A DNA stretch of 64,000 nucleotides from Chloroflexota bacterium. GTDB lineage: Bacteria > Chloroflexota > Anaerolineae > Anaerolineales > Villigracilaceae. The notes under the pieces are model-generated. The model was not told where the DNA came from and did no database searches. It was given only the letters and a program-made list of their open reading frames with translations. Location: the NCBI GenBank assembly GCA_021824575.1, contig JAKAKJ010000033.1:1-64000 (forward strand), read 5' to 3'. Below are positions 3,882 through 9,845 of this stretch, piece after piece (position 1 is the first letter of the stretch; each line of letters starts with the position of its first letter). The position numbers were made by a program, and so were the translations under genes.

Positions 3882-6800
3882 ATGAATCCATCCAATATTC
3901 CGATCAGCAAGACAAAGATTTTGCTTCCCAAGCGCCGCGCGGAACTGCTGACTCGCAAGCGGCTGCTCGACGCGTTGTTTGAATTCCTTGACCGGAAGCT
4001 GATCTTGGTCTCTGCGCCTGCCGGATATGGCAAAACATCGCTATTGATTGACCTGGCACACCACAGCGAACTGCCGTTCTGCTGGCTGGCGCTCGATCCG
4101 CTCGACCGCGATCCGCAGCGTTTCATCGCTTATTTCATCGCCGCGTTGACCGAACGTTTTCCGCAATTCGGCAACCGTTCCCGTTCGATGCTGAATACAA
4201 TGACCAGCCTTGAAAATGGGATGGAGCCGCTGCTGGTTACATTGGTCAACGAGATTTACGATGACATCCACGAACACTTTGTCCTGGTGCTGGATGATTT
4301 TCACCTGCTGGACGATGTCCAGGCCATACAATATTTTGTAAATAGATTCACGCAGCTGGTTGGCGAAAATTGTCATTTAATTCTGTCTTCCCGCTCCCTG
4401 CCGGGACTTCAGGATTTAACGCTGTTGGTCGCCCGCGAACAGGTCGGCGGCCTGGATTTTTCGGACCTCACATTCACGCCGGAAGAAATCCAGGCGCTCC
4501 TGGCGCAGAATCAACAAATTCGTCTTTCAGATGATGACGCGCAGAAATTGATCGAAGCCACGGAGGGCTGGATCACCGGCCTGCAATTCACAGATTTGAA
4601 TCAGCTGCAATCTGGCGGGTTAAGTTTCCAATCATCTCACGCAGTCGGCATCAGCGTATTTGATTATCTTGGTGAGCAGGCTCTCGAACATCAAACCGAG
4701 GCATTGCAGCTATTCCTTTTGCGAAGTTCCCTGCTCGAAGAGTTCGATGCGAAACTGTGCGAAGAAGTATTGGCTTCGTTCTATTCCGAACATCAAAACT
4801 GGCCGAAATTGATCGAGACGATCGTCCAGAAGAATTTGTTCGTGTTGCCCATGGGCGCGAACGGCCAGTGGATCCGCTATCATCATCTGTTCCGCGATTA
4901 TTTGCAGGAACGGATGCGCGGTGAGCGTCCCGATGAAGTCTTTCCCATTTTGCAAAGGCTGGCGCAATTCCAGGAAAAACAGGGACAATGGGAAAGAGCC
5001 TATCAGCTTTACAAACAACTCGGTAATATGGATGCTCTGGCCGACATGATCGAGCGCGCCGGGATTCCGATGTATCAGAATGCCATGCTGACTTTGGAGA
5101 ACTGGCTGAAGGATCTGCCGCCGTCCATCGCGCAGAACCGCGCGGGGCTGCTGTCATTGCGAGGCGCGGTTGAATCTGCAAAGGGAAATGTTTCTGAAGC
5201 GGTGACGTTCTTTGATCGTGCTATTGCAAAGTTCCGCGATGCGAACGATATTCCCGGTTTGGCGTTAGCTCTTGTGCGGAGAGGTATGACGTATAAATTG
5301 TTGGGAGATTATCAGGCAGCCATCCAAGATGCGAAGGAGACAATACAACTCACCGAATCCAAGGATGATTTGCAATGGAATTATGCTGAAGCGCTGCGCG
5401 TAAAAGGGCTTAGCTTATTCAGGCAAGGCGAGACCTTTCAAGCGTCGAACTATCTGGAACATGCTTTGGATGTCTATAGTCGAGTGCAGGACGTTCATTC
5501 CATCCCCATCTTGCTTATGGAAACTGCCATGATTAATACGGCGTCAGGCAAATACCGGGAGGCCAAGGCCTCTTATGAAAAAGCCCTTATAATCTGGCGA
5601 CAAACGGGAAATCTTTCATGGCAGGCAAGCTTGCTTAATAATCTTGGATTTCTGCACCATCAATTGGGGGAATATGAACAGGCTGCACAGGTCTTTGAAG
5701 AGGGGCTGGTTTGTGCAAAGCAAAGCGGCAATAAATACATGGATGCCCTTATATCCATGAGCTTAGGGGATCTGTATACTGATGTAGGTGATATTGCCTT
5801 GGCAGAAAAAAACTATCACCACTCACAGAACATAGCTCAGCAACTTGGCGAGCAATTTCTCCACAACTACCTTTCTCTTGCGGCAGCTAATCTGGCCATT
5901 CTGAGAAAAGATACTTCGAGTGCTCATTCCATTCTTGATCGAGCAGAGACGGATATCAAAGCCAGTAAATCCAATTATGAAAAGGGTCTTTTTGAGCTTG
6001 CCCGCGGACGCCTGCTGTTACAGGAGGCAAGAAATCAGGAAGCACTCAAGGAATTGATAAGTGCAGCGGATTGCTTCCAAAAGGCTGGGCGAGAAATGGA
6101 GAGTATTTGGAGCCATGTATGGCTTGCTGCTGCTCAAAGCCGAAATGGAAACCTTGTCGCGGCGCGGAAAGAACTAAGCATTGTTTTTGAAAACTCTAGG
6201 AGGCCGAATCATTTTGCAATCGTTGCTGCAATGCAGGCAAAAGAATGGATGGCAGATCTGTATAACGATCGCGAGGCCAGGTCTACCTTGCGGCCACTTT
6301 TTGAAAAAATTAGCCAACTTGAGGGCCAAATACCGCGCATTCGCCGTCAATTGCGGCGGCTGATACGGACAATGGAAATTCCTGCTGCACAGCTGACCAT
6401 TCAGGCTTTCGGGCAGGGGCGAGTATCAATCAATGGCAGGATATTAACGATAAATGATTGGCAAACGCAATCCGTGCGTGAACTGTTCTTTTATTTCCTG
6501 GCACAAGATCGCCCTGTGACGAAAGAGAAAATTGGGGAAGTGCTTTGGCCAGAAAATGACGAGCCATCTAAACTCAAGTTGCGTTTTAAAAATGAGATTT
6601 ACCGTCTGCGCCGCGCGGTGGGACAGGATACAATTCTATTTGAAGATGATCGTTATCGGTTCAATCCTACAATTGACCATGAGTACGATGTTGAAGCGTT
6701 CGAGACTTATCTAGCTAGAGCTAGATCTTCTTCAACACCTGCTGAGCAAATGGACTTTTATCAAAGGGCAATTGCCTTGGTGCATGGGCACTATCTTGAA

Positions 6801-7115
6801 GATATTGGAGCCACATGGGCTTGGCCCGAGCGCGAACGCTTGAGCCAAGCATTTCTTTCAGCATCACTAAATTTGGCCGAACTCCTTTTGAGAAATGCTC
6901 AATTACCAAAAGCACTGCGTGTCTGTCAGCGCGCTTTGGAACATGATTCAACTTTTGAAGCTGCCTATCGCTTAATCATGCAAATCTACTACCGCATGGG
7001 AGACCGAGCTTCTATCATCCACACCTTCCGCACGTGTGAAGAAGCGATGCTAAAGGCATTTGATATGCCGCCGTCGGAGGAAACATTGAGACTTCAGCGC
7101 GAGTTGCTCGCCTGA
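3882..7115 (+). CDS. MalT-like ATPase/TPR transcriptional regulator with BTAD C-terminus
   Basis: A 1077-residue regulator. Residues 1-330 are a MalT-type STAND ATPase: Walker A APAGYGKTS (about 45-53) and Walker B LVLDDFH (about 135-141), then the arginine-rich helical region. About 400-800 is a tetratricopeptide-repeat array (repeated FxxA-L-LxxxG patterns such as YEQAAQVFEEGL). About 835-920 is an OmpR/SARP-type winged helix, and about 930-1075 a bacterial transcriptional activator domain (BTAD). Proteins of this class bind an inducer through the TPR sensor, oligomerise with ATP and activate transcription. The gene is followed by a terminator and then by a 12-bp tandem repeat placed 8 bp before a -10 box, a layout typical of SARP targets, in front of the small-peptide operon. 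The likely role is local activator of that operon; this is inferred from position. Confidence 0.9.
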   Translation: MNPSNIPISKTKILLPKRRAELLTRKRLLDALFEFLDRKLILVSAPAGYGKTSLLIDLAHHSELPFCWLALDPLDRDPQRFIAYFIAALTERFPQFGNRSRSMLNTMTSLENGMEPLLVTLVNEIYDDIHEHFVLVLDDFHLLDDVQAIQYFVNRFTQLVGENCHLILSSRSLPGLQDLTLLVAREQVGGLDFSDLTFTPEEIQALLAQNQQIRLSDDDAQKLIEATEGWITGLQFTDLNQLQSGGLSFQSSHAVGISVFDYLGEQALEHQTEALQLFLLRSSLLEEFDAKLCEEVLASFYSEHQNWPKLIETIVQKNLFVLPMGANGQWIRYHHLFRDYLQERMRGERPDEVFPILQRLAQFQEKQGQWERAYQLYKQLGNMDALADMIERAGIPMYQNAMLTLENWLKDLPPSIAQNRAGLLSLRGAVESAKGNVSEAVTFFDRAIAKFRDANDIPGLALALVRRGMTYKLLGDYQAAIQDAKETIQLTESKDDLQWNYAEALRVKGLSLFRQGETFQASNYLEHALDVYSRVQDVHSIPILLMETAMINTASGKYREAKASYEKALIIWRQTGNLSWQASLLNNLGFLHHQLGEYEQAAQVFEEGLVCAKQSGNKYMDALISMSLGDLYTDVGDIALAEKNYHHSQNIAQQLGEQFLHNYLSLAAANLAILRKDTSSAHSILDRAETDIKASKSNYEKGLFELARGRLLLQEARNQEALKELISAADCFQKAGREMESIWSHVWLAAAQSRNGNLVAARKELSIVFENSRRPNHFAIVAAMQAKEWMADLYNDREARSTLRPLFEKISQLEGQIPRIRRQLRRLIRTMEIPAAQLTIQAFGQGRVSINGRILTINDWQTQSVRELFFYFLAQDRPVTKEKIGEVLWPENDEPSKLKLRFKNEIYRLRRAVGQDTILFEDDRYRFNPTIDHEYDVEAFETYLARARSSSTPAEQMDFYQRAIALVHGHYLEDIGATWAWPERERLSQAFLSASLNLAELLLRNAQLPKALRVCQRALEHDSTFEAAYRLIMQIYYRMGDRASIIHTFRTCEEAMLKAFDMPPSEETLRLQRELLA

Positions 7116-7142
7116 TTTTTTCCACGCTTACATCGTTCCCTC

Positions 7143-7170
7143 AAAGCAGCCAACAGAGGCTGCTTTTTTT
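7143..7170 (+). terminator. intrinsic terminator of the BTAD regulator
   Basis: AAAGCAGCC (7143-7151) pairs with GGCTGCTTT (7158-7166) around a 6-nt loop and runs into a T tract. It separates the regulator from the peptide operon. Confidence 0.85.
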
Positions 7171-7174
7171 AATC

Positions 7175-7212
7175 TTTTGAAGCCTGTTTTGAAGCCTGGG
7201 GGCTTGTATGAT
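7175..7212 (+). promoter_or_regulatory. tandem 12-bp direct repeat plus -10 box, SARP-like activator site
   Basis: TTTTGAAGCCTG occurs twice in perfect tandem (7175-7186 and 7187-7198). Eight bases further is TATGAT (7207-7212), a good -10 box with no matching -35 hexamer. SARP/BTAD activators are known to bind direct repeats of about one helical turn placed about 8 bp upstream of the -10 box, in place of the -35 element. The next gene begins at 7246. Confidence 0.6.
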
Positions 7213-7245
7213 TTGGTCATCGTTATAGAAGAAAGGATTATTCTC

Positions 7246-7389
7246 ATGAATAACAAAATTGCCCGCTTTGCCCTTTTTGCCAGCAAAATTAACCGACAGC
7301 ATGTCCAATTAGCGTTTTCTATTCTCGCTTTAGGAATGCTTGTACTGGGTATCGGAGCTCCACTGGATAGCGGCGGTATCTCTCATTAA
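7246..7389 (+). CDS. 47-residue membrane or exported peptide
   Basis: A short peptide of 47 residues. I chose the ATG at 7246, which has GAAAGGA 9 nt upstream; the longer ORF start at 7177 lies inside the promoter repeat. It has a basic N-terminal half (KIAR, KINRQH), one hydrophobic segment at residues about 23-37 (FSILALGMLVLGIG) and a short polar tail, APLDSGGISH. This is the layout of a signal-peptide-like or single-pass peptide whose tail could be released or displayed outside. It is the first gene after the tandem-repeat promoter and is followed by the DUF5317-type gene 9 nt later. I recognise no named family. A pheromone, a small membrane regulator or an accessory subunit are all possible. 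Confidence 0.65.
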   Translation: MNNKIARFALFASKINRQHVQLAFSILALGMLVLGIGAPLDSGGISH

Positions 7390-7398
7390 AAAAAGATA

Positions 7399-7974
7399 GT
7401 GATCCTCCTTTTTGCCCTTGCCGCCGGGTTGTTGGTGGGCTTGGGATGGGCGCGCTGGCGTAAAGAGCCTTACCAAGCGCCTGCTATACAGGCTTTATGG
7501 CTGGCTTTCATTGCTTTCCTACCTCAGCTGATTATTGCTTACCTGCCAGCCAGCCGCCATCTCCTCCCCGATTGGATCGCCGCGTTAAGCCTGTCGCTGT
7601 CACTGATCCTCTTTCTGGCGTTTGCGTGGATTAACCGTCGTTTGCCGGGCATGCCGATCCTTCTTATCGGGTTGTTGCTCAACTTGGCGGTGATTTTAGC
7701 CAATGGCGGCTGGATGCCAATCAGCCCGGAGGCGGTGAGCCGCCTTGCGGGTCCTGATGCGATTCGAACCGTCAGCTTGGGCAGCCGCATTGGGCAAAAA
7801 GACATCCTTCTGAGCCCGCAGGATACGCGCCTGGAATTTTTGTCGGATCGTTTCCTCCTCCCTGATTGGCTGCCGCATCAAGTGGCCTTTAGTCTTGGAG
7901 ACGTCTTTATCGCCGCTGGCATATTCTGGCTGCTCGCCAGGCCGAAATCAAATATGAAAAGAGTTGCTGTATGA
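7399..7974 (+). CDS. DUF5317-type membrane protein
   Basis: A 191-residue polytopic membrane protein starting with GTG at 7399. It has about five hydrophobic segments (near residues 2-16, 30-48, 58-77, 84-104 and 160-180). The motif NGGWMPIS after the fourth segment is characteristic of DUF5317 proteins found in Chloroflexota and Actinobacteria; the region after it is a roughly 50-residue extracytoplasmic or cytoplasmic loop before the last helix. Function of the family is unknown. It sits between the small peptide and the NHLP-like protein and overlaps the latter by 4 nt (ATGA), so the three are one operon. A transport or processing role for its small neighbours is a hypothesis only. Confidence 0.75.
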   Translation: MILLFALAAGLLVGLGWARWRKEPYQAPAIQALWLAFIAFLPQLIIAYLPASRHLLPDWIAALSLSLSLILFLAFAWINRRLPGMPILLIGLLLNLAVILANGGWMPISPEAVSRLAGPDAIRTVSLGSRIGQKDILLSPQDTRLEFLSDRFLLPDWLPHQVAFSLGDVFIAAGIFWLLARPKSNMKRVAV

Positions 7975-8246
7975 TTACATCAAATACTTTTACAACAAAT
8001 TTGCCTTTCAGGGTTGGTTCGCCTGATTCTCGTACGGGCCTCGGCAGTGTATTTGCGGCCGCCGTGGTCAATCGGGAATTCCGAAATACACTTTTACAGA
8101 ATCCCCAGGCCGCGCTCGAAAGCGGCTATATGGGACAGCCATTCCTGTTGACGGCCGAGGAACATTCTCTTCTGACTTCCATAGCTGCGACTTCTCTCAC
8201 TGATCTGGCTCAACGGATCATGGTATCGCAGGGAGTCGGCGATTAG
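7971..8246 (+). CDS. small protein resembling Os1348/NHLP-clan RiPP precursors
   Basis: A 91-residue soluble protein, overlapping the DUF5317 gene by 4 nt. Residues about 27-70 (NREFRNTLLQNPQAAL, then LTAEEHSLL) match the pattern of the nitrile-hydratase-like leader peptide (NHLP) clan, especially the Os1348 group: xxEFRxxLLxxPxxAL...LTxEExxLL. NHLP leaders are helical regions cut from ribosomal peptides after modification. Here the tail after the pattern is short (about 20 residues), lacks Cys and ends in SQGVGD. No YcaO, radical SAM, LanM or peptidase gene is in the window. It may be a true precursor modified elsewhere, or a non-RiPP user of the same helical fold. Family resemblance is read by eye. 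Confidence 0.6.
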   Translation: MITSNTFTTNLPFRVGSPDSRTGLGSVFAAAVVNREFRNTLLQNPQAALESGYMGQPFLLTAEEHSLLTSIAATSLTDLAQRIMVSQGVGD

Positions 8247-8375: not shown

Positions 8376-9845
8376 ATGCTTTTAGATAATCTGCCCAATG
8401 CCTCCACTCAACTGAATGCCATCCTTAAGGCATTCCCGGACTTCCTTTTGATTCTGGATGAGAGGGGATTCGTCCTCGATTACAAGGCTGATGATTCGAT
8501 CTTCCCGTTTGCATCCAAACAGTTCAGGCTGGGACAATCCATAGCCAGTGCCTTTCCGCCGGACGTCGCCGGCAAGTTCCAGCAGATCGTTCAAGACTTG
8601 AAACAAACCCCCGCGATCCAGTCATTCGAATATTCAGTAAAACTCCAACAGACAGAGCATTGGTTCGACGCGAAGTTTATTCCAGTCGAACCGGCACAGG
8701 TTATCGTCGTTATCCGGGAGATCACCAGGCACAAGCTGGCCGAAGAAAGAACCCAGCGCCAACTAAATCGTTTGGCTGCATTACGCGCGATTGATCTCGC
8801 CATCTCATCCACTCTCGATATTCACTTGGCGCTGTCCGTGGTACTGAGTCAGGTCACCTCCCAATTGAACGTTGACGCAGCGGATATTTTGCTGCTCAAT
8901 CCGCAGAATAATTTGCTCGAATTTGCCAATGGCGTTGGCTTCCGCACCGAATCATTGCAGCAGACGCGTTTGCCTCTGGGGGAAGGTTATGCGGGGATGG
9001 CTGCCCTCAGGCGGCAGGTGATCAGCGTTCCGAACTTGCAGCGCGGAAAAACCGGTTTCCTCCGTTCGCCAAAATTCGCGGAGGAAGGTTTCCATTCCTA
9101 TTATTGCGTTCCGCTCATTGCAAAGGGACATGTCCGAGGCGTGATGGAAGTCTTCCATCGAACGCCTCTCACCCCGGACCTCGATTGGTTCGACTTCATG
9201 GAGACGCTGGCTGGTCAGGCTGCCATTGCGGTGGAAAACGCGACGTTGTTCAGAGAGTTGCAGCGCACCAATTTCGAGTTGACCCTGGCCTACAACACGA
9301 CCATCGAAGGCTGGTCGCGCGCCCTCGACCTGCGCGACCGCGATACGGAAGGCCATACCCGGCGCGTTACCGAGATGGCGCTGAAACTTGCACGCCGGCT
9401 GGGGGTATCCGAGGCGGAACTTGTCAACGTTCAACGGGGAGCCATACTGCACGATATCGGCAAAATGGCCATTCCCGACAACATATTATTGAAGTCCGGG
9501 CCGCTAAGCGCCGAAGAATGGAATATCATACGTCAGCATCCGCGTTATGCGCGCGAACTTCTCTCGCCAATTTCCTTTGTGCGGCCTGCACTGGACATTC
9601 CCATGTATCATCACGAAAAATGGGATGGGACCGGCTACCCTGGCGGTTTGAAGGAAAATCAAATCCCGTTGTATGCGCGGTTGTTTGCCGTGGCGGACGT
9701 CTACGATGCACTTACATCCAACCGTCCGTACCGGCCCGCTTGGACGAAAGAGCAGGCCATTGTCTATATTCGCGAGCAGAGCGGCAAACACTTTGACCCG
9801 GACATGGTCAATCATTTTCTAAAGATGATAACGGATACGGACTGA
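8376..9845 (+). CDS. PAS-GAF-HD-GYP signalling phosphodiesterase
   Basis: A 489-residue cytoplasmic protein. Residues about 15-120 look like a PAS domain (FLLILDERGFVLDYK at its start), about 135-300 a GAF domain, and about 305-489 an HD-GYP domain. The catalytic motifs are complete: HTRRVTEM, HDIGK, HHEKWDGTGYPGGLK and ADVYDALTSNRPYR. HD-GYP enzymes hydrolyse cyclic di-GMP to pGpG or GMP with a di-iron or related metal centre. The PAS and GAF parts would sense a small ligand or redox state. The gene stands alone between the peptide operon and a tRNA. No GGDEF cyclase lies in the window. Domain calls are confident; the signal is unknown. Confidence 0.9.
   Translation: MLLDNLPNASTQLNAILKAFPDFLLILDERGFVLDYKADDSIFPFASKQFRLGQSIASAFPPDVAGKFQQIVQDLKQTPAIQSFEYSVKLQQTEHWFDAKFIPVEPAQVIVVIREITRHKLAEERTQRQLNRLAALRAIDLAISSTLDIHLALSVVLSQVTSQLNVDAADILLLNPQNNLLEFANGVGFRTESLQQTRLPLGEGYAGMAALRRQVISVPNLQRGKTGFLRSPKFAEEGFHSYYCVPLIAKGHVRGVMEVFHRTPLTPDLDWFDFMETLAGQAAIAVENATLFRELQRTNFELTLAYNTTIEGWSRALDLRDRDTEGHTRRVTEMALKLARRLGVSEAELVNVQRGAILHDIGKMAIPDNILLKSGPLSAEEWNIIRQHPRYARELLSPISFVRPALDIPMYHHEKWDGTGYPGGLKENQIPLYARLFAVADVYDALTSNRPYRPAWTKEQAIVYIREQSGKHFDPDMVNHFLKMITDTD

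Follow-up and report, generated by a model that had tools for sequence, protein, structure and literature searches.

We describe a locus that is on balance probably an autoregulated peptide-signalling locus, most like an autoinducing peptide system, and that is a strong candidate for a new bacterial peptide-signalling family in the Anaerolineae and beyond. It lies in a 64,000-nucleotide stretch of a Chloroflexota genome (assembly GCA_021824575.1, contig JAKAKJ010000033.1, positions 1 to 64,000; hereafter the window). The regulator, terminator, tandem repeat, 47-residue peptide, DUF5317 protein and 91-residue protein named in a preliminary description of this DNA were all recovered in place. 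Beyond the three genes of the operon that it proposed, the unit often runs on into a PAS-GAF-HD-GYP gene. The features are as follows.

3882..7115, + strand: regulator, 1077 aa, with an N-terminal AAA/STAND ATPase, TPRs, a predicted winged helix and a C-terminal BTAD (Pfam and NCBIfam)
7143..7170, + strand: intrinsic terminator-like stem-loop (stem 7143-7166) and T run, 3′ of the regulator
7175..7186, + strand: putative operator half-site 1, TTTTGAAGCCTG
7187..7198, + strand: putative operator half-site 2, TTTTGAAGCCTG, ending 8 bp 5′ of the -10 element
7207..7212, + strand: -10 element TATGAT; relatives in the family, and the second operator of this genome, show the same 8-bp spacing
7232..7237, + strand: Shine-Dalgarno-like AAAGGA, from sequence
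7246..7389, + strand: 47-aa signal-peptide-like precursor, candidate mature tail APLDSGGISH, proposed cut after Gly37
7399..7974, + strand: DUF5317 membrane protein (PF17248, E=3e-37), ~5 hydrophobic helices
7971..8246, + strand: 91-aa Os1348/NHLP-clan protein that lacks a core peptide and overlaps DUF5317 by ATGA
8376..9845, + strand: PAS-GAF-HD-GYP protein, putative c-di-GMP phosphodiesterase, the conserved next gene in closer families

DUF5317 was present in 83/298 Anaerolineae-class genomes, and approximately 100 DUF5317 loci were read. Throughout the Anaerolineae the genes recur in the order regulator, small peptide, DUF5317, NHLP-like (~60 loci), far more often than chance would allow. 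Where a regulator lies upstream of DUF5317, a small peptide was found between the two in 62 of 63 distinct loci (60 by script, with those of L066 and L137 coming from other scans); the sole exception was L072, in which no peptide was recognised. The conserved co-occurrence across Chloroflexota that had been suggested is thus borne out. The NHLP-like gene is found 3′ of DUF5317 in most loci and 5′ of it in one lineage. Across genomes, the peptide (E<1e-5) was detected in 72/83 DUF5317-positive versus 2/215 DUF5317-negative genomes (Fisher, 2e-54), and of the latter two matches one falls inside a 198-aa ORF and the other at a contig end. This association between peptide and DUF5317 holds even for genomes in which the two are unlinked. 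A phylum-wide search revealed a genome from beyond the Anaerolineae in which the order is complete (L230), and partial versions in L229 and L231.

Three genera carry regulator, peptide and NHLP gene without an adjacent DUF5317 (L169, L172, L173, L175, L177). Many regulator orthologues from genomes that lack DUF5317 still have a small ORF of exported appearance and an NHLP gene behind them; the tails here include GMPGSGGGGA, NAPISGGGGGY and ANPPAGGDSPS. Since the set persists without DUF5317, the stable set is regulator, peptide and NHLP, and DUF5317 accompanies the GAP type of peptide. For the regulator orthologues L210, L219 and L224-L226 neither peptide nor NHLP gene was found. Likewise, no GAP-type peptide was found near the two other BTAD regulators of the window genome (L108, L109).

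The regulator gave Pfam matches to AAA_16 (E=3e-7) and BTAD (E=1e-15, residues 936-1076), flanking a TPR array at approximately residues 355-735. A winged helix probably occupies residues ~845-930, where no Pfam model for it matched. The MalT model NF003420 matches residues 10-806, whilst the C-terminus matches by sequence the SARP domain of AfsR in the PDB (8hvr, E=0.0016); similarity to ComR/Rgg TPR models is marginal. The protein therefore carries the BTAD, AAA (NOD) and TPR set of the large, AfsR-type SARPs in reversed order. Judged by this domain content, it is a STAND/SARP-type regulator that is nearest to AfsR and belongs with the large SARPs, its domain order inverted. The preliminary description compared it with the RRNPP group, to which it does not belong.

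Two copies of an exact 12-bp direct repeat, TTTTGAAGCCTG, lie head to tail at 7175-7198 in front of the peptide gene. Direct repeats of period 11/12 were found upstream of the peptide gene in 36/60 loci, reaching a score of 7, compared to ~1.6 of 60 expected from shuffles and 5.9% for other upstream regions of the same loci, and no other repeat period gave a comparable peak. In the remaining 24/60 loci a clear repeat was absent by the criterion used. SARP promoters have direct repeats 11 or 22 bp apart, the 3′ repeat being 8 bp from the -10 element (PMC10936776). The period of the operator in the window is 12 bp versus the classical 11, whereas its 8-bp spacing is as at SARP promoters; 8 bp also separate the 3′ repeat from a -10-like hexamer in the window's family, and a Shine-Dalgarno-like site precedes the peptide gene of every relative too. 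The repeat sequences vary from family to family, as is expected if each regulator reads its own repeat, and we infer that the direct repeats are the site bound by the regulator.

The window genome contains only one further copy of the operator (<=3 mismatches), situated 8 bp 5′ of TATACT. This second site (G000:C50) precedes a gene for a giant secreted RHS/SpvB-type protein of more than 3575 aa (L187:9276-20000). A second operator was likewise found in genome G302, where an HU-like gene and an RHS + SLH protein lie downstream of it, and in G089 and G233, where it is followed by a small LuxR-type HTH protein and then by secreted hydrolase-type genes. A reversed-pattern control returned 0 matches in 41 genomes; some three-mismatch matches in other genomes resemble chance or fall inside genes (L188, L197, L205). 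When two operator sequences of other families were searched, no second target was found, the sole site being the peptide promoter. Orthologous operator promoters in L206 and L207 lead to a small stand-alone LuxR-type HTH gene with M23-like or Rv2525c-like hydrolase genes downstream.

The precursors begin with a positively charged N-terminus, contain a single hydrophobic stretch and a cleavage-like small-x-G site, and end in a short tail (AP...GG). Within a set of 69 distinct sequences, nearly all of GAP type, the N-terminus is positively charged in 64/69, position -3 relative to AP is A, G or S in 68/69 and position -1 is G or A in 66/69, with a median tail length of 10 aa (n=69). For Leptolinea sp. 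HRD-7 (L006) the predicted tail is APAATGG. Tandem peptide genes are frequent, reaching up to five copies (L010). Between copies within one genome, leaders show 77 amino-acid versus 121 synonymous codon differences, whereas tails show 5 versus 66; these counts are pairwise in arrays and the pairs are non-independent. In L010 the tail APGAVGI is unchanged over 38 synonymous pairwise differences. A DUF5317-free precursor directly after its regulator (L214, G009:C77) has a signal-like start, MDRGLGRFVVIVVVTVLVAAFVLGIG..., followed by LLANPPVGGGSSAT three times, and is preceded by a 12-bp direct repeat of its own. Propeptides of the RRNPPA group are known to carry repeated pheromones (PMC11343458). 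Taken together, tails that are constant in tandem arrays and a tail that is internally repeated point to the tail being the product, and this part of the preliminary description is well supported by the pattern of the sequences.

In L223 (G116:C378) a small candidate ORF downstream of a regulator orthologue contains PPTYGGC three times and has no clear signal sequence. Short Cys-rich tails (ICPAC, FCWTC, ICIMC, CGSSVC) occur among L066, L054, L128, L097, L107, L115 and L117, which suggests that these lineages use disulfide or metal chemistry.

The further proposal, that the regulator's TPRs bind the tail as their ligand, is plausible from the gene pairing and the operator. Covariation, however, gave no specific TPR signal: in a partial Mantel test over 47 loci the TPR domain was not singled out (tail-TPR 0.06, p=0.21), whilst the association of tail with DUF5317 was stronger (0.24, p=0.003). 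The partner of the tail could therefore be DUF5317.

DUF5317 itself scored 128 bits against Pfam (cut-off 25) and has the invariant motifs NGG.MP, L.D and S.GD. A Foldseek search of its confident model (pLDDT 91.9) against the PDB returned no fold match (best E 3.1). The suggestion that it acts in export or processing is consistent with its co-occurrence with the peptide across genomes, but this search lends no structural support to a role as protease or transporter; for the same reason an aspartyl protease of the GxGD type, which S.GD might indicate, remains a guess. A literature search found no paper on DUF5317. The HD-GYP gene that follows the unit in closer families hints at a link to c-di-GMP. 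A second DUF5317 context, with no BTAD regulator, was observed in L076, L065, L085, L077, L123, L125, L126, L138 and others, in the order ~250-aa conserved protein, tiny ORF MKW...KW(H), HD-GYP, DUF5317. This tiny ORF has one hydrophobic stretch, and no Pfam family above cut-off was found for the ~250-aa protein upstream of it. DUF5317 is thus often near a tiny membrane-type ORF.

Several known systems resemble the locus in part. As in the RRNPP/RRNPPA systems of Bacillota, a TPR regulator stands beside a small gene whose propeptide carries an export signal, and a short tail would be the signal; multi-copy or internally repeated forms of the RRNPPA pheromones are known (PMC11343458, PMC10075063). 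The RRNPP_detector survey, with receptors set to 250-500 aa, covers Firmicutes and viruses only (PMC10075063). RRNPP receptors of 250-500 aa have TPRs alone or with a small N-terminal HTH, whereas the window regulator is a 1077-aa STAND ATPase with a C-terminal winged helix/BTAD, in Chloroflexota, with a SARP direct-repeat operator and with DUF5317 and NHLP partners that have no RRNPP counterpart. The adjacent propeptide gene with export signal is present, yet the system is not an RRNPP member. MalT/LAL regulators similarly combine a STAND ATPase with a TPR sensor. MalT, a sensor of maltotriose, has a LuxR HTH at its end, in contrast to the winged helix/BTAD and linked peptide gene found here. 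In the AfsR-afsS system of Streptomyces, SARP/BTAD, NOD ATPase and TPR are again joined in a single protein, but AfsR has the opposite domain order and its system lacks a DUF5317 or NHLP partner. To our knowledge, afsS does not encode a signal-peptide-bearing propeptide. Its direct-repeat operator, 8 bp from the -10 element, drives this small gene (PMC10936776). That account describes phosphorylation and ATP as modulators of AfsR and does not use the word 'ligand' (PMC10936776).

The 91-residue protein matches the Os1348/NHLP model at E=7e-7, below the curated cut-off, and of the NHLP-like members 58/60 match NF038399 (Os1348) at E<=0.01 and 12 match the NHLP leader model. Such matches would favour reading the protein as the precursor of a RiPP that serves as signal or effector, in keeping with the earlier proposal that the 91-mer yields the ligand. 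However, conservation among the members spans the fold, their C-termini are short, variable and often absent, and no conserved or Cys/Ser/Thr-rich core region was found in them. The window protein shares the NHLP fold with Os1348/NHLP RiPP precursors but has no core peptide, and no RiPP modifying enzyme was recognised among the window's neighbouring genes. The 91-mer was rejected as a RiPP precursor, being an NHLP fold without a core region; we consider a RiPP product as signal or effector highly improbable, and the protein is probably not the ligand. Of the term 'NHLP leader-like', the NHLP fold survives and the leader does not, since the core peptide is absent. As a guess, the protein is a modulator.

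The small ORF might instead be an uncleaved single-pass membrane protein that serves DUF5317, or the HD-GYP pathway, as subunit or regulator, with the BTAD regulator only driving the operon as in AfsR-afsS. This would agree with the way the peptide follows DUF5317 through genomes, with the closer correlation of tail distance to DUF5317 than to the TPRs, and with the HD-GYP context, where a BTAD regulator is absent and the tiny ORF near DUF5317 is a different one. However, on separation the peptide and NHLP gene remain with the regulator, not with DUF5317, and they also occur where DUF5317 is lacking; internally repeated tails, and tails that stay constant across diverged copies, are a better fit to a released product. 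We therefore think an uncleaved protein unlikely. A released tail could also be a small secreted, bacteriocin-like antimicrobial under SARP control, with DUF5317 as its immunity protein. Several features would suit such a role: the genes are multi-copy, the tails are species-specific, co-occurrence with a membrane protein is strict, control is of SARP type and the regulon includes an RHS-type secreted protein. Against it, the tails are Gly-rich and of only ~10 residues, there is usually one locus per genome, almost always adjoining the regulator, and the operator is mainly found at the peptide promoter itself. Among the loci read, neither a dedicated transporter nor a modification gene could be recognised. 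An antimicrobial is thus very unlikely.

The computation shows that the genes are linked, how the operator is built and distributed, that tails are constrained and occur in tandem and internally repeated forms, and that a second operator site exists. A secreted signal is favoured by the tandem genes with constant tails, the thrice-repeated tail, the peptide's persistence beside the regulator where DUF5317 is distant or missing, the direct repeats, their SARP-like 8-bp spacing and the operator copy ahead of the RHS gene. In the following model of peptide signalling we infer cleavage, export, re-entry and binding, in which direction regulation runs, and what DUF5317 and the NHLP-like protein do. 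The regulator would bind the direct repeats and recruit RNA polymerase, in SARP fashion, to the peptide operon, forming a positive loop. The 47-residue propeptide would be inserted in an N-in/C-out orientation, and a cut near G|AP would free the short tail APLDSGGISH. DUF5317, specific to GAP-type precursors, would most likely cut, release or (re)import the tail, which upon its return would act on the regulator via the TPR domain and so turn on further targets. These would include the giant secreted RHS protein in the window genome and, in relatives, the small LuxR-type regulator beside secreted hydrolase genes. The NHLP-like protein would be a conserved accessory, perhaps a modulator.

A literature search found no description of peptide signalling in Chloroflexota. 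In its broadest form, which we put forward tentatively as somewhat short of an even chance, the system may be a phylum-wide, undescribed class of Chloroflexota peptide pheromones, with a STAND-TPR-BTAD protein as intracellular receptor and autoactivator, GAP-type tails, DUF5317 as a membrane protein devoted to maturation or transport, and control of giant secreted RHS proteins and other social functions. It offers concrete predictions in the tail sequence, the operator and the second target. If true, it would provide a ligand class for the large SARP/STAND regulators, a role for DUF5317 and predicted signal sequences for dozens of largely uncultured sludge and sediment genera.
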